Counted from the stretch's first letter, positions 23,065 to 34,414 are shown. The stretch is DNA of 64,000 nucleotides from Verrucomicrobiota bacterium (GCA_016935555.1 JAFGQR010000190.1:1-64000), one strand, 5' to 3'. The notes: generated by a model from the letters alone, not told the origin. Made by a program: numbers and translations.

Positions 23065-24060
23065 ATGGAACCGCTCTACGGCATGCTTTACCTGGCGCTC
23101 AGCGCGATGAACGCGGCGACGTGGACGCCGCCGAGCCCCGCCGATCTCGCGACGAGCGCCGTGCCGGTGATCACCCTGACGATTCCGCAGCCGCCCACGG
23201 CTTTTTTCCGGGAGCTGCTCGAGGCCAGGTCCCAGGATCGGAAGCAACTCCTCGGCCGCCATTCCCCCGCGCAGCAGACCGTGCTGCTCACCCAGATCCA
23301 ACGCTACGAGACCATGACGCGCAAACAGCGCGACCATCAGTTGCTCACCCTCGAACTCCGGTGGTATCTGGCGTTCCTGATGCGGCAGTCCCCTTCCAAC
23401 CGCGCCATGCTCCTCCTCAGTGTCCCCGCCCCGCGCCGCGGTCTCGTCGATTCCCGCCTTGTGTTCTGGGACCGGCTCTCCCCGGAAATCCAAAAGGACA
23501 TTCTTGAAAACGAGATGGCCATCCGGATGCAATACAGTCTCCCCATGATGCAGCAGACCCTTGCCCACCTGCCCTCGGCGCAGCGCCAGAAAATCCTCGA
23601 GGACATCGCCCGCTGGGAGGCCATGCCGGTTGAGCGCAAGCAAAAGGTGTATTGGGGGTTCCAATACCTGTTCGAACTGGACGACGCGCCGCCGCCGCCG
23701 CTGCCGGATCCCGGGGCGATGGCCGTGCCCGGCGACCCCCCTCTGCCGGTGCCGTTGAGCCAAATGTTCAGCGAGTTCAAAAAGCTTCCTTCGGACGACC
23801 GCGTGGCGTGCCTGGAGAATTTCCAGCGGTTCACGCGGCTTCCTCCGGACCAGCGCACTCGGTTCGTCAAGGCCGCCTACCGCTGGAGCCAGATGAGCGA
23901 ATCCGAGCGCAACGCCTGGCGCCGCGCCGTCAGCGACGAAGCCTCGCCGCCCGCTCCCCTGCCCCCGATGCCCGACAATTATCTGCCTTCGGAATCGCCG
24001 CGCGCGTCCCGGATCCCCCGCGTTCTCAAAAGCACCCCGTCACCGCCCGGCCTTCCGTGA
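23065..24060 (+). CDS. DUF3106-like protein of sigma operon
   Basis: 331 residues from ATG 23065, 13 nt after the anti-sigma stop. It carries repeated short helical units of the form (L)xxLPSxxRxxxLExxxRWxxM, e.g. HLPSAQRQKILEDIARWEAM, KLPSDDRVACLENFQRF and RLPPDQRTRFVKAAYRW. These look like DUF3106 repeats, found beside ECF sigma genes. The N-terminus is mildly hydrophobic but a cleavable signal is not clear. Two Pro-rich linkers divide the repeats. Function unknown. The 3' end overlaps the convergent DGC gene by 21 bp. Confidence 0.62.
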   Translation: MEPLYGMLYLALSAMNAATWTPPSPADLATSAVPVITLTIPQPPTAFFRELLEARSQDRKQLLGRHSPAQQTVLLTQIQRYETMTRKQRDHQLLTLELRWYLAFLMRQSPSNRAMLLLSVPAPRRGLVDSRLVFWDRLSPEIQKDILENEMAIRMQYSLPMMQQTLAHLPSAQRQKILEDIARWEAMPVERKQKVYWGFQYLFELDDAPPPPLPDPGAMAVPGDPPLPVPLSQMFSEFKKLPSDDRVACLENFQRFTRLPPDQRTRFVKAAYRWSQMSESERNAWRRAVSDEASPPAPLPPMPDNYLPSESPRASRIPRVLKSTPSPPGLP

Positions 24061-24546
24061 GCGGTTGGCTCCTCCCCCAGGCCGCGCGGGCGCCGGTCCG
24101 CCCCGCGCCGACCGGCGCCCGGCGCGCCGCGCGCCCCGGGTGCGGGGAGGCTGGCGTTGGGCCTTTGGGGGCCGCGCCAGAAGCCGGGCGGCATGTTTGA
24201 CCGCCAAAGCGATGTTTTCCGGAGTCGCCGGGCTCTGGCCTTTGCGCAGGCCCAGTTCGAGCAAATGGAAACTCTCGACCGCGTTGAACCCGGCCTGCTC
24301 CAGGGTGTGCCGGGCGCAGGCGGTCGGACACCCGTCCATCGCCAGCAAACGGTCGGCAGTCTGCGCATTGAACAGAATGTCCGGAACGCCCGCCGCGATC
24401 GAGGCCAGGCAGGACATGGTGCCCGCGCCCTCGCGCGTCAGTTGCCGCGCCGCGCGATCGGTGATTTCGCCCACGTCGGCCGCGCCGGAGCAGGTGAAGA
24501 TGAGCTTTCGGGCGGCGGACCGGGATGGAACGGAGCCGGGTTTCAT
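24040..24546 (-). CDS. DGC-domain putative zinc-binding protein
   Basis: 168 residues from ATG 24546. The family-defining motif is MDGCPTACAR (D71-G72-C73 and C77); further Cys are at LIFTCSGAADVG (C19) and GTMSCLASI (C46). These four Cys are the expected metal ligands of DGC proteins, a small family of uncharacterised zinc-binding proteins. The last 50 residues are an Arg/Pro/Gly-rich tail of low complexity, overlapping the DUF3106-like gene by 21 bp. It may relate to the metal-handling cluster at 29054-34414, though on the opposite strand. Confidence 0.78.
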   Translation of the reverse strand: MKPGSVPSRSAARKLIFTCSGAADVGEITDRAARQLTREGAGTMSCLASIAAGVPDILFNAQTADRLLAMDGCPTACARHTLEQAGFNAVESFHLLELGLRKGQSPATPENIALAVKHAARLLARPPKAQRQPPRTRGARRAGRRSARGGPAPARPGGGANRSRKAGR

Positions 24547-28608: not shown

Positions 28609-29053
28609 CGGCGTGTCGGGTTTGAGGTTCAGGTTCGGTGGCGCGCTGCGCGTGCCCCCGGGCGCGCCTGACCACGGCGGACCCGTCCGTCCGCCGGTCC
28701 GGATCCGTTGCCGCGGGTCTTGCGCGCCGGGCTTCTTTCGGGAAGCATCGGCAAAGTGTGGCACGGGGACAACGTCTTGACCAGCGCGGAAATCCGGCCA
28801 CACTCTCCCATTATGCAATCGTCGGGCTCGACCGACCGTTTCATATTGCAACAGTCGGCTGGCGGTTTGGCTGGCGGCGCGCGGCCGGAATCGGCGCGTT
28901 GGACGGGTGTTTGCCGCGGCCTGCCGTTGCGCGGGGGGTGTGGCATGGGAGGTGCAGGCTTGGGTTGTGCCTCTTGGCGGCGGGCAGGACCAGACAACGC
29001 AGACAGGTTGCCGCGATAACAACTGGAATGACGGGTGATACAATTGGACTGAT
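28609..29053. other. Divergent intergenic region, no gene
   Basis: 445 bp between the propeller fusion and the ferritin-like gene, read divergently. No coding frame is convincing. The only signal I see is a TACAAT -10 box at its right end. Confidence 0.45.
29039..29044 (+). promoter_or_regulatory. -10 box TACAAT before the ferritin-like gene
   Basis: TGATACAAT has TACAAT (5 of 6 to consensus) 9 nt before the ATG at 29054. No -35 at normal spacing. The expected start point is 2-3 nt before the ATG, so the message would be leaderless. It would drive the metal-cofactor cluster. Confidence 0.45.
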
Positions 29054-29473
29054 ATGAACAAAGACGACTTGATCAAGGGACTGAACGAGGATCTTGCGGC
29101 CGAACTGGGCACGGTGATCCGGTATACCTACCAGGCGGGCAAGTGCTACGGGCCGCAGGGCGCCGAAGTGCGCGAGCTGTTGCGCAAAGACGCCGAAGAC
29201 GAACTCGGCCACGCCGCCTTCCTGACGGACGTGATTCTGGACCTGGGTGGCGAACCCACCACGACGCCGAAGTCGTTCGACAAGCCCGGCGACCTCAAAG
29301 GCATGTTGTCGGTCAACCTGGCCATGGAACAGCAAGACGTCGAACATTACATGGCCCATGCGGCACTGGCCGAGGCCTTGAAGCTGCCCGAACTCAAAAT
29401 AAAACTGGAGGAAATGGCGGCGGACGAAGCCGGCCATGCGCGGGAGCTGCGGCGCTTGTTGAAGGGACTGTGA
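29054..29473 (+). CDS. Ferritin-like di-iron protein
   Basis: 139 residues, a four-helix bundle. The two ExxH metal motifs are in DAEDELGHAAF (E50, H53) and ADEAGHAREL (E125, H128), with further Glu at E17 and E92. The set fits a bacterioferritin/rubrerythrin-like di-iron site. The chain is shorter than bacterioferritin (about 155-160), so cage formation is uncertain. Likely role: iron binding or oxidation in the cytoplasm. The stop overlaps the ATG of the next gene (TGATG), so it is coupled to the CooC-like ATPase. First gene of the cluster. Confidence 0.86.
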   Translation: MNKDDLIKGLNEDLAAELGTVIRYTYQAGKCYGPQGAEVRELLRKDAEDELGHAAFLTDVILDLGGEPTTTPKSFDKPGDLKGMLSVNLAMEQQDVEHYMAHAALAEALKLPELKIKLEEMAADEAGHARELRRLLKGL

Positions 29474-30387
29474 TGGAAGCGTCGACGAGACCTCTGAACG
29501 GATGCCGCCTGGGCCTGTTCGGGCGGGGCGGCAGCGGCAAGAGCACCTGCACCGTCTTGCTGGCGCGCGCTCTGAAGCAAGCGGGCTACGCCGTGTGCGT
29601 GCTGGATGCCGACTCGACCAACGAAGGGTTGCCTCAGGCGCTGGGCGCCGACCGTCCGCCCGCACCCCTGCTGGATTACTTTGGCGGCACCGTGTTCAGC
29701 GGAGGCCGGGTCACCTGTCCCGTGGACGACCCGATGCCCCTGGAGGGGGCGAGCGTGAAGGCCGACCGGTTTCCGCAGGAGTATGTGGGGCGGACGGCCG
29801 AGGGGATCATGGTGTTCGCCGCCGGCAAAATGGGGCCGCTCGGCCCCGGAGCCGGCTGCGACGGGCCAATGACCAAAATCGCGCGGGATTTCATGGTGCA
29901 AACCGAAGGGCCTGCGCCGGTGACGCTGGTGGATTTCAAGGCGGGCATCGAGGACTCCTCCCGCGGCGTCATCACCAGCCTGGATTGGGTGGTGGTGGTG
30001 GTGGACCCGAGTTACGCGAGTGTCCAGATGGCGGTGGCGATGCGGAAGCTTTTCGAGCAAATGCACGCCGGCCACCAGCCCGCCACGCAGCACCTTGCCT
30101 CCCCGGAACTGGTGGCGCTGGCCCGGCGCGCCTTCGAAACGGCCCGCACCAAGGGGGTGGCCTGCGTGCTCAACAAGGTCGCCGATGCGGATACCGACCG
30201 TGTGCTGCGGCAACGCCTCGCACAGGCGGGAATCACGCCCGTCGCGGCGATCCGCGACGAACCCGGCCTGCGCCAAGCCTGGCTCCAGGGCACGCAAGTG
30301 GACAGCCCCGCCGCACGGCATGAAATGGCCAAAATCGTCGAAGCCCTCGAGCGCATGACGCGCGAGGCATTTCCGGCACCCGCTTGA
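29473..30387 (+). CDS. CooC-like deviant-Walker ATPase
   Basis: 304 residues. P-loop GRGGSGKST (17-25), then VCVLDADSTNEGLPQALG (switch-like Asp), FAAGKMGPLGPGAGCDGP with a GxGC cysteine, TLVDFKAGIEDSSRGV and VVVVVDPSYASVQ. This is the SIMIBI family layout of CooC and its relatives, which insert metal into CO dehydrogenase or other enzymes. The usual first P-loop Lys (KGG) is Arg here. No CODH gene is in the window, so the client is unknown. Coupled to the ferritin-like gene upstream; the NifX-like gene follows after 13 bp. Confidence 0.82.
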   Translation: MEASTRPLNGCRLGLFGRGGSGKSTCTVLLARALKQAGYAVCVLDADSTNEGLPQALGADRPPAPLLDYFGGTVFSGGRVTCPVDDPMPLEGASVKADRFPQEYVGRTAEGIMVFAAGKMGPLGPGAGCDGPMTKIARDFMVQTEGPAPVTLVDFKAGIEDSSRGVITSLDWVVVVVDPSYASVQMAVAMRKLFEQMHAGHQPATQHLASPELVALARRAFETARTKGVACVLNKVADADTDRVLRQRLAQAGITPVAAIRDEPGLRQAWLQGTQVDSPAARHEMAKIVEALERMTREAFPAPA

Positions 30388-30400
30388 ACCGCCCCCCCCC

Positions 30401-30796
30401 ATGCGCATCGCCATTCCCGTCCTCAACCAGCACATCTCCCCCGTCCTCGACTGGGCGGAGCGTCTGCTCATGGTTGATGTTGTTCATGCCCGCGAGACGG
30501 GACGGCAATGGGTGCTGATCACCGAGGACCACCCGACCCGTCGCACCGAACAACTGGTGAACCTCGGCGTCGACGTTCTCATCTGCGGCGCCCTGACGCG
30601 TTACTTCGAGGACCTGCTCGCCGCCTGCCCCATCCGCCTCTGGCCGCGCCGGTGCGGCGACGTGGAGGAAGTCCTGGCCGCGTTTCTGCACGGCGACCTC
30701 GATGACCACCGCTTTTGTCTGCCCGGATGCTGCCCGGGCCACCCCCGGCGGCGGCGGCGCGAGGCGTCGAGGAAATCGGCCGCGAGGCGCTCATGA
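30401..30796 (+). CDS. NifX/NifB-type iron-molybdenum cluster-binding protein
   Basis: 131 residues. Start MRIAIPVLNQHISPVLDWAE matches the family opening (I-P-V, then S-P-V-x-D). Then LLMVDVV, a strand with LVNLGVDVLICGAL, and a Cys-rich end (RFCLPGCCPGH) followed by a basic tail. Relatives bind Fe-S or Mo/Cu-S clusters; beside nitrogenase they are NifX, elsewhere they are 'orange protein' type. No nif genes are nearby, so a nitrogenase role is rejected. Placed between two P-loop ATPases in one cluster, as in ORP operons. Confidence 0.8.
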   Translation: MRIAIPVLNQHISPVLDWAERLLMVDVVHARETGRQWVLITEDHPTRRTEQLVNLGVDVLICGALTRYFEDLLAACPIRLWPRRCGDVEEVLAAFLHGDLDDHRFCLPGCCPGHPRRRRREASRKSAARRS

Positions 30797-30850
30797 AACG
30801 CTGGCAACAGCGGGCCGCGTCGCTTGTGCCGGGCGCACCTTCCGCGACCG

Positions 30851-30928
30851 CGCGGGAACCCCGTCCTGGGGCGCGGTTCCCGCGGCGGTTCCGGCAGCTG
30901 CCGCGGCGTTCGGAAACCGGGAACGCCG
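30851..30928. terminator. Two consecutive GC hairpins between nifX-like and def genes
   Basis: First: CGCGGGAACC (30851-30860) pairs with GGTTCCCGCG (30875-30884), 10-bp arms. Second: CGGCGTTC (30904-30911) pairs with GAACGCCG (30921-30928), 9-nt loop. No T-run follows either. They may attenuate, protect or partly end the upstream transcript. The 221-bp gap holds no supported gene. Confidence 0.4.
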
Positions 30929-31017
30929 TCGTCCATGGTCACCGCTCGCCGTGCCGGACCCGCCCCGGCATGCCGGCGCGCGAATCGTTCCGGGCGTGTG
31001 TTTCCTGAACCACGGTT

Positions 31018-31617
31018 ATGAACCCGCATCCACCCCCGCCCCGTCGATCCTTCGATCCCGCCCTTGAGATCGCGGCGCGGCAGCGCCGTTTGCAGGGGCT
31101 GAGCCTGATCATGTATCCCGACCCGATCCTGCGGACCGTGTGCCAGCCGGTGGGGCGTTTTGACAGCACCCTGCGGGATCTGGCGGAGGAGATGTTCGGC
31201 CTGATGCAGGCGTATGCCGGCATCGGCCTGGCCGGACCCCAGGTCGGCCTGGACCAGCAACTCCTGATCTGCCGGCTGGAACAACAGCCCATCATTCTCA
31301 CCAACCCCGAGATCCTGGAAACCGGCGACCCGGGCGACTTGGAGGAAGGGTGCCTGAGCCTGCCCTCCATCCGGGTGCGCGTCCGCCGCCCTGAGCGGAT
31401 TCGCCTCACGGGCTATGACGCGGCGGGCGCGAAGAAGAGCCTGGTGGCGAGTGGCCTGTGGGCCCGGGTGATCCAGCATGAGATGGATCACTTGAACGGC
31501 GTCCTGATCTGCGACCACGGCCATCCGCTGGTGGAAAGCTGCCGCGACTGCCGCCTCACGCTGCCCCCGGTGCTGGTCGAAGAACGCAAACGGCGGTCGC
31601 GCCGGACGCGGTCGTGA
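31018..31617 (+). CDS. def: Peptide deformylase
   Basis: 199 residues. All three signature motifs are intact: GIGLAGPQ (68-75), EEGCLS (C112) and QHEMDH (H144, E145, H148); C112, H144 and H148 bind the catalytic metal, usually Fe2+. It removes the formyl group from nascent peptides. Extra features: a Pro-rich N-terminus of about 25 residues and a C-terminal extension with CDHGHPLVESCRDC and a basic end. Placement inside a metal-handling cluster suggests a paralogue linked to iron supply. The stop overlaps the ATG of the following membrane gene. Confidence 0.92.
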   Translation: MNPHPPPPRRSFDPALEIAARQRRLQGLSLIMYPDPILRTVCQPVGRFDSTLRDLAEEMFGLMQAYAGIGLAGPQVGLDQQLLICRLEQQPIILTNPEILETGDPGDLEEGCLSLPSIRVRVRRPERIRLTGYDAAGAKKSLVASGLWARVIQHEMDHLNGVLICDHGHPLVESCRDCRLTLPPVLVEERKRRSRRTRS

Positions 31618-32360
31618 TGATGAGCGGCAAGTTGCACCTGGTCCTGCGCGAGTTGAAGGTCCATGCGCCCTTTACCAGCATGGGCACCTTGACCGGCCTG
31701 ATGGTGCTGGGCCTCACCATGGCCGTGCCCCGGGCGTTCGCTGCGGGTTGCTTTTGGACGCTGCACCCGATCCACGTGCTGCTCAGCGCCATGGTCACCA
31801 CGGCGATGTTCCGCCGGCATGGCAGCCGGAGTTTCTGGGCGACCCTGGCGGTCGGCTACCTGGGTTCGGTCGGCATCGCCACCGTGAGCGATTGCGTCAT
31901 CCCGTTTTTCGGGGAATGGCTTCTGGCGCTGCCTCGCCGCGGGCTGCACCTGGGGTTTATCGAGAAAGCCTGGCTGGTCAATCCGCTGGCGCTGGCCGGC
32001 ATCGCCGTGGGCGTGCTTTGGCCGCGGACCAAGGTGTCCCACCTGGGCCACGTCCTGTTGAGCACGTGGGCCTCGCTCTTCCACGTCGTCATGGCGCTGG
32101 GCGACGACTTCCCCTGGAGCGTCCTCGTGGTCGCGCCGGTGCTTCTCTTCCTGTCCGTGTGGCTCCCATGCTGCACGAGCGACATTGTCTTCCCGCTGCT
32201 CTTTGCCCGCCGGACAGAACCGGCCTGCGCGGCCGGGGCATTTCCGGGCAACGGCATCCGGGTTGACTCTCGTCCCTTCGAAAGCATGAATCCCGTGACG
32301 CCCCTCACATCCCCCCCTGCGCAACCCGGGTCCGCTCCGGACATTGCGTCCCGCCCTTAA
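31617..32360 (+). CDS. His/Cys-rich multi-pass membrane protein of unknown function
   Basis: 247 residues, about six hydrophobic segments. Notable polar residues inside or next to membrane segments: H16 in KVHAPFTSMG, C45-H50-H53 (AGCFWTLHPIH), D92-C93 and E100, H142-H145 (SHLGH), H156 and C185-C186 in WLPCCTSDIVFPL. Such a set suggests metal or haem handling in the membrane, but I do not recognise the family. GTG at 31614 and ATGs at 31617 and 31620 are possible starts; 31617 overlaps the def stop. The last 45 residues are a Pro-rich, soluble tail. Same strand as panD and mrp. Confidence 0.7.
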   Translation: MMSGKLHLVLRELKVHAPFTSMGTLTGLMVLGLTMAVPRAFAAGCFWTLHPIHVLLSAMVTTAMFRRHGSRSFWATLAVGYLGSVGIATVSDCVIPFFGEWLLALPRRGLHLGFIEKAWLVNPLALAGIAVGVLWPRTKVSHLGHVLLSTWASLFHVVMALGDDFPWSVLVVAPVLLFLSVWLPCCTSDIVFPLLFARRTEPACAAGAFPGNGIRVDSRPFESMNPVTPLTSPPAQPGSAPDIASRP

Positions 32361-32378
32361 GCCATGCCCCGTTCTCCG

Positions 32379-32735
32379 ATGCAACGTCTCATGCTCAAAT
32401 CCAAGATCCACCGCGCCACGCTGACCGGCAAAGCGCTGGATTACGAAGGCAGCATCACCGTGGATCGCACCCTGCTGGACCGGGCGGACATTCTCCCCGG
32501 CGAACAGGTGTATGTGCTGAATGTCAACACCGGCACGCGCCTGGTCACCTACGCCATCGCCGCGCCTCCCGGCTCCGGCACGCTGGTCCTGAACGGCCCT
32601 GCGGCGCGGCTGGGCGAGCCGGGCGACATCGTCGTGGTGCTCGCCTACGCCTGGATGCCGTCGGCCCAAGCGAAGCGCCTCAAACCGGTGGTGGTGCGTG
32701 TGGACGCCCGCAATCGACCCTTGCCAAAATCCTGA
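32379..32735 (+). CDS. panD: Aspartate 1-decarboxylase
   Basis: 118 residues if started at MQRLMLKSKIHR. That start puts the conserved Lys at position 9 and the self-cleavage Gly24-Ser25 (YEGS) exactly where E. coli PanD has them; an ATG at 32364 would add five residues. The proenzyme cleaves itself to make a pyruvoyl group and turns aspartate into beta-alanine for pantothenate. Also visible: ERNVN-type stretch VLNVNTGTR and LNGPAARLGEPGD. No other pan genes nearby, so its place in the metal cluster is unexplained. Confidence 0.92.
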   Translation: MQRLMLKSKIHRATLTGKALDYEGSITVDRTLLDRADILPGEQVYVLNVNTGTRLVTYAIAAPPGSGTLVLNGPAARLGEPGDIVVVLAYAWMPSAQAKRLKPVVVRVDARNRPLPKS

Positions 32736-32755
32736 TTCCTACAAGTATACCCCTC

Positions 32756-33625
32756 ATGAGCGAACCTTCAAAACCTCCTCCGTCCCCCTCGGCCTCTCCG
32801 GCGGAGGTGGCCAAACAGGACGCCGTCCTGCAGGACCGCCTCCGACTCATCCGCCACCGGCTGATTGTCCTGTCCGGCAAAGGCGGCGTGGGCAAAAGCA
32901 CCGTGGCCGCCAACCTGGCCTGGGCCCTGGCGCAGACCGCCCGGACCGTCGGCCTGCTCGACGTCGACGTCCATGGGCCGAGCATCCCCAAGTTGATGGG
33001 CTTGGAGGGGGCGCGCCCCGACATGGATGCGGCGGGGATTCGCCCCATCAATTTTGCGCCGGATTTGAAGGTCATGTCGCTGGGGTTTCTTCTGGAGACG
33101 GCGCAGGACGCGGTCATTTGGCGCGGCCCGTTGAAATACAATGTGATCCGGCAGTTTCTGCGGGACGTGAACTGGGGGCCGTTGGATTATCTGATCGTGG
33201 ATTCGCCTCCGGGCACGGGGGATGAGCCGCTTTCGGTGGTCCAGCTGGTCGGCCAACCCGCCAAGGCCATTGTGGTCACCACCCCGCAATCGGTGGCGGT
33301 GGCGGACGTGCGGCGCTCGATCACCTTCTGCAAGCAGCTCTCCCTTCCCGTCGCCGGTCTCATCGAGAATATGAGCGGCTTTGTGTGTCCGCATTGCGGG
33401 AAGGTGACGGACTTGTTCAAGGCGGGCGGCGGCGAAGCCCTGGCGCACGAGATGCAGGTGCCGTTCCTGGGCCGCGTGCCCCTGATGCCGGAAGTGGTGG
33501 TGGCCAGCGACGAAGGCACGCCATTTCTCCAGCGCTATGCCGGCACCCCGCTGGCGGCGTCGTTCACCCGAATCGTGGAGCAAATCCAGAAAGCGGAGGC
33601 CGCCCCGTCAGCCGCCCAGGCGTAG
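32756..33625 (+). CDS. Mrp/NBP35-family Fe-S cluster carrier ATPase
   Basis: 289 residues. Deviant Walker A GKGGVGKST (41-49), LLDVDVHGPSIPKLMG, YLIVDSPPGTGDEPLS, TTPQSVAVADVRRS and the Cys pair in ENMSGFVCPHCGK. The CPHC motif binds a bridging 4Fe-4S cluster at the dimer interface, so this is a cluster-carrying Mrp. The N-terminal MIP18-like domain found in many bacterial Mrps is missing; a 30-residue Pro/Ser stretch takes its place. Last gene of the tight same-strand run starting with the ferritin-like gene. Confidence 0.9.
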   Translation: MSEPSKPPPSPSASPAEVAKQDAVLQDRLRLIRHRLIVLSGKGGVGKSTVAANLAWALAQTARTVGLLDVDVHGPSIPKLMGLEGARPDMDAAGIRPINFAPDLKVMSLGFLLETAQDAVIWRGPLKYNVIRQFLRDVNWGPLDYLIVDSPPGTGDEPLSVVQLVGQPAKAIVVTTPQSVAVADVRRSITFCKQLSLPVAGLIENMSGFVCPHCGKVTDLFKAGGGEALAHEMQVPFLGRVPLMPEVVVASDEGTPFLQRYAGTPLAASFTRIVEQIQKAEAAPSAAQA

Positions 33626-33632
33626 CATGCGT

Positions 33633-33646
33633 GCCCCGAGAGGGGC
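33633..33646 (+). terminator. Small GAGA-loop hairpin after mrp
   Basis: GCCCC-GAGA-GGGGC just after the mrp stop. A tight stem with a GNRA loop but no T-run; may end or protect the cluster transcript. Confidence 0.32.
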
Positions 33647-33811
33647 GCCCGTGCCCCATGATCGACGCGAACCATGCCATGACCCGCATCCGGCCTGAGA
33701 CGGATCTTCGGCTCGTTCCGGGTGGCCCGGACCGTGCCACGGCGGGTGCCTTCCCCCGGCTTGCGGGAATCCGCCCCCCCTCCGGACATTTCCCCTGACA
33801 TCGCACGCCTT

Positions 33812-34414
33812 ATGTGGACCCCTCCCCATCAACCCAGACGACAATTCCTGGTGTGCACAGGCCTCGGATTATTGGGCGCTCTCGACGCCGCGGCGGCTGA
33901 GAGCCCCCCCCGGCCCGCGGCCCCTTTCAAGCCTTTGGAGAAGGGCACCCAGGTGGATCTCCGCGGCAAGGGCAAGGAGATGCTGCAACGGGCCTATCAG
34001 CTCGGGTACGAGTTTGAGAAAAAGCACGGCGGCTGCTGCCGCTGCACCGTGGCCGCTCTGCAACGCGCCATCGACTTCATTCCCCAGGACGACGATGTTT
34101 ATCGGGCGGCCACCTGCCTGGATGGCGGCGCGACCCCTGGCGGACTGCAGAACTGCGGAGCCTTCACGGGAGCGGGCATCATGATCGGCTATCTGTGCGG
34201 CACGGCGCCGTTTGGAGAGACGAGCCTGGCTCATCGCCTGGTGCGTGCTGTCTACGAAGAGTTCAACAAGGCGTATGGCAGTGTCTTGTGCAAGGATGTC
34301 CGACACAAAGGCCACGGCAACTGCCCGGAGGTCGTCGCCAAAGCAAGCCAGTGGACCGCAGAAGCAATATTCCGCCAGTTCACCAATTACCGTCCCGACG
34401 ACCACGCCAAGTAA
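33812..34414 (+). CDS. Exported C_GCAxxG_C_C family protein
   Basis: 200 residues from ATG 33812. A Tat-like start QPRRQFLVCTGLGLLGALDAA suggests export in folded form. Conserved Cys pattern: HGGCCRCTVAAL, then GGLQNCGAFTGAGIMIG (the C-G-A-x-x-G core), then VLCKDVRHKGHGNCPE. The family is small, redox/metal-associated and uncharacterised. Cys number and Tat signal suggest a cluster or metal loaded in the cytoplasm. It follows mrp after 186 bp on the same strand, so it could be a client of that cluster. An in-frame extension to 33722 would hide the signal. Confidence 0.76.
   Translation: MWTPPHQPRRQFLVCTGLGLLGALDAAAAESPPRPAAPFKPLEKGTQVDLRGKGKEMLQRAYQLGYEFEKKHGGCCRCTVAALQRAIDFIPQDDDVYRAATCLDGGATPGGLQNCGAFTGAGIMIGYLCGTAPFGETSLAHRLVRAVYEEFNKAYGSVLCKDVRHKGHGNCPEVVAKASQWTAEAIFRQFTNYRPDDHAK

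Follow-up and report, generated by a model that had tools for sequence, protein, structure and literature searches.

In Desulfovibrio, a sigma54 activator controls the ORP operons, which combine genes for Mrp, NifX-type proteins and MinD-ferredoxins (PMC6345978, PMC3897727), and iron-sulfur (Fe-S) transfer by an Mrp-type protein is already known from MrpORP. A further point of comparison is IssA of Pyrococcus, whose tail is thought to hold thioferrate (PMC5524996). The locus described here lies in a stretch of 64,000 nucleotides (the window) from Verrucomicrobiota bacterium GCA_016935555.1 (JAFGQR010000190.1:1-64000), a genome of 5.29 Mb in 200 contigs that is 94% complete. Seven open reading frames (ORFs), all on the plus strand and spanning 29054-33625, encode a ferritin-like protein, a CooC-like ATPase, a NifX-type protein, a second peptide deformylase, a membrane protein here termed MEM, a second aspartate decarboxylase (PanD) and an Mrp ATPase. 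A sequence-only reading of this DNA had presented them as the best candidate for an undescribed system. This was overstated: what the window holds is the known ORP-type (Mrp/MinD/NifX) Fe-S neighbourhood of anaerobes in an enlarged form. One undescribed family, MEM, does belong to it, and MEM with its co-travelling second deformylase is its most interesting part. No published account of the extended neighbourhood was found in the largely open-access literature.

MEM is an undescribed membrane protein family

In one scan of GTDB genomes, MEM was found to be encoded by 361 stretches. All neighbourhood counts refer to the best 80 of these, in which ORFs were predicted, clustered and mapped; they derive from Syntrophaceae/Smithella, Planctomycetota, Lentisphaerae, Omnitrophota, Dehalococcoidia and others. 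Within the phylum of the window, MEM was matched in 25 of 388 genomes, with two of the matches marginal (E about 5e-4). An alignment of 72 sequences contained 41 invariant columns, among them H17, H51, H54, D93, E101, H112, H143, H146, H157, C186, C187 and D190. The AlphaFold model consists of six long helices (predicted local distance difference test, pLDDT, 86.7; predicted template modelling score, pTM, 0.78), and mapping onto these helices would place the invariant histidines and cysteines inside the membrane span.

No credible match to MEM was detected among Pfam or NCBIfam families or PDB sequences, and a fold search returned no solved structure alike (best E 0.52, probability at most 0.18). 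Together these searches exclude that MEM belongs to a known family and bear out the earlier description of the protein as unrecognised. MEM is a real, widespread and undescribed membrane protein family. Apparent fusions to other domains in loci L010 and L040 were rejected because the long open frames are spurious, the upstream translation in L040 being antisense-like. One MEM gene lies on a 427-kb contig in a viral collection (L088), which is probably bacterial and filed as viral.

Conservation of the neighbourhood

At least one NifX, MinD-ferredoxin or Mrp gene was present near MEM in 59 of the 80 loci and at least two in 48, compared with none in 194 kb of control DNA, a small set picked mostly around deformylase and PanD genes that provides no usable background for those two families. 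NifX-type genes were the most frequent (51 loci, with a cationic tail in 28), followed by those for MinD-ferredoxin (47), radical SAM proteins (31), Mrp (30), DUF5320 (28), sigma54 activators (25) and NifU/IscU (19). FeoA/FeoB or Fur genes were present in some loci. The grouping is not due to chance, because sets of several members are found again in other families and phyla. The metal and Fe-S cluster is genuine, and its neighbours are conserved, where a lack of conservation in any other genome had been named as grounds for abandoning it. The sequence-only reading had also taken ferritin, deformylase and the membrane protein as arguments against an ORP link. That argument failed: most relatives have MEM next to ORP-type genes (NifX, MinD-ferredoxin, MrpORP-like, sigma54 activator), and the same neighbourhoods repeatedly include deformylase and ferritin.

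Contig C90 of the window's own genome carries NifX, DUF5320, two MinD-ferredoxins, a radical SAM protein and an ArsP_2-family exporter, and is the missing half of the ORP-like gene set for the cluster. G529, from another family of the order, has an array running in one direction that begins with ZnuA, an ABC-3 permease, Mrp, NifX, PanD, DUF302 and an NADH-oxidase-like protein and continues with ferritin, radical SAM, the CooC-like ATPase, DUF89, deformylase, a methyltransferase, DUF302 and a P-type ATPase; the protein that follows reads like a ZIP transporter. In the order-mate G028, one contig holds ferritin, PPOX, CoA-binding, radical SAM/DUF89 and deformylase genes, and a second holds a sigma54 activator, NifX and MEM. 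Of the pyruvoyl-dependent decarboxylases, three unrelated kinds were also seen to recur in this neighbourhood (loci L013-L067 and the window): PvlArgDC in 18 loci, phosphatidylserine decarboxylase in 10, and PanD in three besides the window.

Gene content and layout of the cluster

The window deformylase is a second copy with intact GxGLAxPQ, EGCLS and HExDH motifs. The housekeeping copy is on contig C115; of the genomes in the order, most encode a single deformylase. A clade (support 97/99) unites the linked deformylases of the window, G028, two Planctomycetota and a deltaproteobacterial metagenome-assembled genome, and leaves out the other deformylases that these genomes encode. L194 (the L051 gene) belongs to the linked set and L189 and L190 do not, although the tree was labelled the other way; the clade itself does not change. 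In five loci from three phyla the deformylase lies immediately 5' of MEM, a placement with a chance probability of about 1e-11, a rough figure that treats placements as independent and takes no account of relatedness among loci. Of these five copies, that of L051 (204-572) has a frameshift at an A8 run and that of L053 (7733-7951) is reduced to a truncated remnant, so either the deformylase is dispensable or those assemblies are erroneous. The idea that all MEM-linked deformylases form one group was rejected: the clade does not include those of L085 and L078, the latter being the sole deformylase of its genome. A C-terminal addition with CxxC and VLVEERK, absent from the housekeeping copy, was shared by the window deformylase with those of G028 and G529 (L181, L202). 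The other PanD copy is on contig C114; the window PanD shares 51-61% identity with the PanDs encoded in clusters of other phyla, whereas its identity to the C114 copy is 44%.

The label NifX-like was justified by family and predicted fold rather than by the protein's own Pfam score, which is below the cut-off (14.9 versus 26.3 bits). PF02579 was matched by 20 of 20 members of its family, a profile of the family retrieves NifX-fold structures, and the model matches PH0822 (2YX6; E 4e-9), TM1816 (1O13), ORP (2WFB) and NifX. Beyond a conserved (M/L)PGC, the model shows a disordered tail (pLDDT about 52), which carries a net charge of +8; a net charge of +4 to +14 was found in 33 of 35 listed rows, those with (M/L)PGC, a few of which are same-locus duplicates. 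Other NifX-type proteins of these clusters have His-rich tails (L030, L010 and L202, at L202:13106-13606) or RGG-type tails (L053, L023, L036 and L025).

Two deviant-Walker ATPases had been proposed. The Mrp protein has the expected GKGGVGKST and a CPHC motif, fitting the Mrp/NBP35 patterns GKGGxGK[ST] and CXXC, whereas the CooC-like protein (GRGGSGKST) has Arg at the signature Lys position and no CxC. Besides the window Mrp, no full-length Mrp was found in the genome. The window protein does not have the two domains (Mrp and Di-Nase) of MrpORP, covering only positions 3-254 of 365 with a score of 382.9 against a cut-off of 450, and the NifX-type domain is a separate gene. Orthologues of the CooC-like ATPase, 63-66% identical, occur in G529 and in G462 of the same order, and all three share GRGG[SC]GKST and a single Cys (GCDGP); an initial indication that this ATPase was lineage-specific, with no other match in 289 genomes of the phylum, was overturned by the order-level search that gave these two orthologues. 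A ferritin-like orthologue 76% identical to that of the window is present in the related cluster of G028 and another in the G529 array.

When the ORFs were re-read, the genes listed in the sequence-only reading were present on the plus strand where it had placed them, and five (ferritin, deformylase, PanD, Mrp and C_GCAxxG) passed the Pfam cut-off (Table 1). The start-stop overlaps that it had described were also confirmed in the sequence, the ferritin/CooC-like junction being a TGATG stop/start and the MEM start overlapping the deformylase stop. Gaps of 221 bp 5' of the deformylase and 186 bp 5' of C_GCAxxG leave room for other promoters. There was no sign of recent horizontal gain of the cluster (G+C content 66.9%, versus 67.7% for the window), and no Rfam match to an RNA element.

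Table 1. Features of the cluster and its surroundings in the window
Feature	Position	Strand	Evidence
Possible sigma54 -24/-12 element TGGCATGGGAGGTGCA, weak	28941..28956	+	score 13.0/15
Ferritin-like protein, 139 amino acids	29054..29473	+	PF00210, 67 bits
CooC-like P-loop ATPase, atypical	29473..30387	+	PF10609 and PF01656, partial matches
NifX/ORP-fold protein with disordered cationic tail (FCLPGCCPGHPRRRRREASRKSAARRS)	30401..30796	+	family and predicted fold
Second peptide deformylase	31018..31617	+	PF01327, 141 bits
MEM, six-helix membrane protein	31614..32360	+	no Pfam, NCBIfam or PDB match
Second aspartate decarboxylase (PanD)	32364..32735	+	PF02261, 145 bits
Mrp/NBP35 Fe-S carrier ATPase, single domain	32756..33625	+	PF10609, 323.6 bits
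C_GCAxxG protein, RRQFL signal	about 33812-34414	+	Pfam above cut-off
ORF with DGC motif	23979-24368	minus	motif only, no Pfam match

Two flanking genes had been counted with the cluster and are bystanders on present evidence. The exported C_GCAxxG protein is present with its signal, but it lies beyond the 186-bp gap and does not recur with the other genes, having no relative in any compared locus. The DGC ORF exists but is on the opposite strand, 4.7 kb away and behind a large PQQ-propeller gene.

Near the NifX gene start, near-consensus -24/-12 sigma54 elements scoring at least 13.0 were found in 23 of 31 relatives (null 95% point 12.5), a few sites falling within over-extended ORFs. In the window, the best site 5' of ferritin is weak, with P about 0.013 per 200 bp, uncorrected for the six regions tested. 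RpoN is encoded in the window's genome. Many relatives with MEM loci have sigma54 activator genes and strong sites, compared with the weak site of the window.

Possible function and relation to known systems

Iron and sulfide storage and delivery in anaerobes are poorly known, and we know of no identified iron donor for Fe-S assembly. To this question the cluster may offer a lead: we put at about an even chance that it serves anaerobic storage, assembly and delivery of iron and iron-sulfide, with MEM as its membrane metal site. The ferritin-like protein would buffer iron, anionic iron-sulfide might be gathered on the cationic tail of the NifX-fold protein in an IssA-like manner, Mrp would carry Fe-S clusters to targets and the CooC-like protein would act as a second metal-insertion ATPase. 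At the membrane, MEM could serve as a conduit or anchor that binds metal through the invariant His, Cys, Asp and Glu inside its helix bundle, and the second deformylase and second PanD may be co-regulated spare enzymes. The analysis establishes directly which genes are present and conserved, that deformylase and PanD are second copies, that the linked deformylases form a clade, that the NifX-type protein has its fold and tail, and that MEM is novel and has conserved residues; we infer each metal, binding event and direction of transport in the model. Of the explanations considered this model fits best. In its favour are the ORP neighbours, the G529 array beside ZnuA, ABC-3 and P-type ATPase genes, the half on C90, the Feo and Fur genes, the NifX fold with its cationic tail, Mrp with the Fe-S transfer known for MrpORP, and the sigma54 sites of relatives. 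Several points weigh against it: the promoter evidence within the window is weak, PanD requires no metal, the window NifX tail is poor in the glycines and aromatics of IssA, the G529 array lacks MEM, and the partners of MEM differ by lineage. A tentative extension, which we consider possible but lean against, is that MEM represents a novel class of transition-metal proteins acting within the membrane, as importer, exporter or membrane site for Fe or iron-sulfide, and that together with Mrp and the NifX/IssA-like protein it makes up a distinct anaerobic route by which iron-sulfide is stored and delivered. MEM, the cationic-tailed NifX protein and the spare enzymes are testable parts of such a route, and some carriers, such as Smithella and other Syntrophaceae, belong to groups that have relatives in culture.

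Deformylase is normally Fe-dependent and PanD is pyruvoyl-dependent, needing no metal. Both are second copies here, and ZnuA, ABC-3 and P-type ATPase genes lie beside the G529 cluster, which would suit a metal-scarcity regulon in which spare enzymes replace or supplement the housekeeping copies when zinc or iron is short and the other genes import and redistribute that metal. Zur-regulated clusters include znuABC and enzyme paralogues in this way (PMC2770081). This explanation is unlikely, as full metal-binding motifs are kept in the linked deformylases, PanD is not a metal enzyme, and most MEM loci contain Fe-S genes and sigma54 activators, not zinc genes. It is quite improbable that MEM instead anchors MinD/Mrp-type ATPases in an ORP complex for cell division or positioning, with metal chemistry serving only the ATPases. 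ORP proteins are putatively tied to cell division, MrpORP is polar (PMC6345978) and MinD-ferredoxin genes adjoin MEM in many loci, but the invariant His, Cys, Asp and Glu of MEM, the ferritin and the G529 transporters indicate metal chemistry over a mere anchor.

The wide variation in partners (TrmO, DUF89, thioesterase, methyltransferases and the three pyruvoyl decarboxylases), the shuffled gene order and the deformylase remnant in L053 are what a loose grouping of anaerobe genes with no joint function, held together by shared regulation or chance retention, would predict. Such a grouping is very improbable given the tight spacing and overlaps in the window, the recurrence of the same core across phyla far above the control and the deformylase placed directly 5' of MEM in five loci of three phyla. 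Least probable of the alternatives is a redox role for MEM, in which the protein, for instance as a bis-His haem protein or a thiol/quinone enzyme, passes electrons to soluble Fe-S proteins and transports no metal. Several invariant histidines of the predicted membrane helices, among them H143 and H157 with a spacing of fourteen residues, and the vicinal pair C186-C187 would be consistent with this, but no cytochrome b, VKOR or DsbB fold match and no family match was obtained.

Compared with described systems, the cluster resembles Zur-regulated zinc-sparing clusters of the COG0523 type in having, in G529, spare enzymes near metal transporters; it differs in that no COG0523 protein was seen and one of the spare enzymes, PanD, does not depend on a metal. 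The CooC-like ATPase shares its P-loop ATPase superfamily with CooC, the nickel ATPase of carbon monoxide dehydrogenase, and is likewise a single copy beside metal genes, but it has no CxC site, has Arg in Walker A and has no carbon monoxide dehydrogenase nearby. With IssA (thioferrate storage in Pyrococcus furiosus) and IssX the window protein shares a NifX-type domain (IPR003731/PF02579) followed by a disordered cationic tail. Its tail is shorter, has few glycines or aromatics and has the conserved (M/L)PGC, and the parallel may be a likeness of working, with membership unproven. The closest resemblance is to the Desulfovibrio vulgaris ORP operons with MrpORP, which likewise combine an Mrp-type Fe-S ATPase, NifX-fold proteins and MinD-ferredoxins in anaerobes, with the sigma54 activator and promoters matched in relatives of the window. 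Unlike in those operons, the window Mrp is single-domain and the ORP-like half is on another contig, so that the ORP-type MinD ATPases with two 4Fe-4S motifs (Orp3/Orp4) are outside the window, on C90; they are also present in 47 of the 80 MEM loci. To the ORP set the cluster adds ferritin, the CooC-like ATPase, the second deformylase, PanD and MEM.

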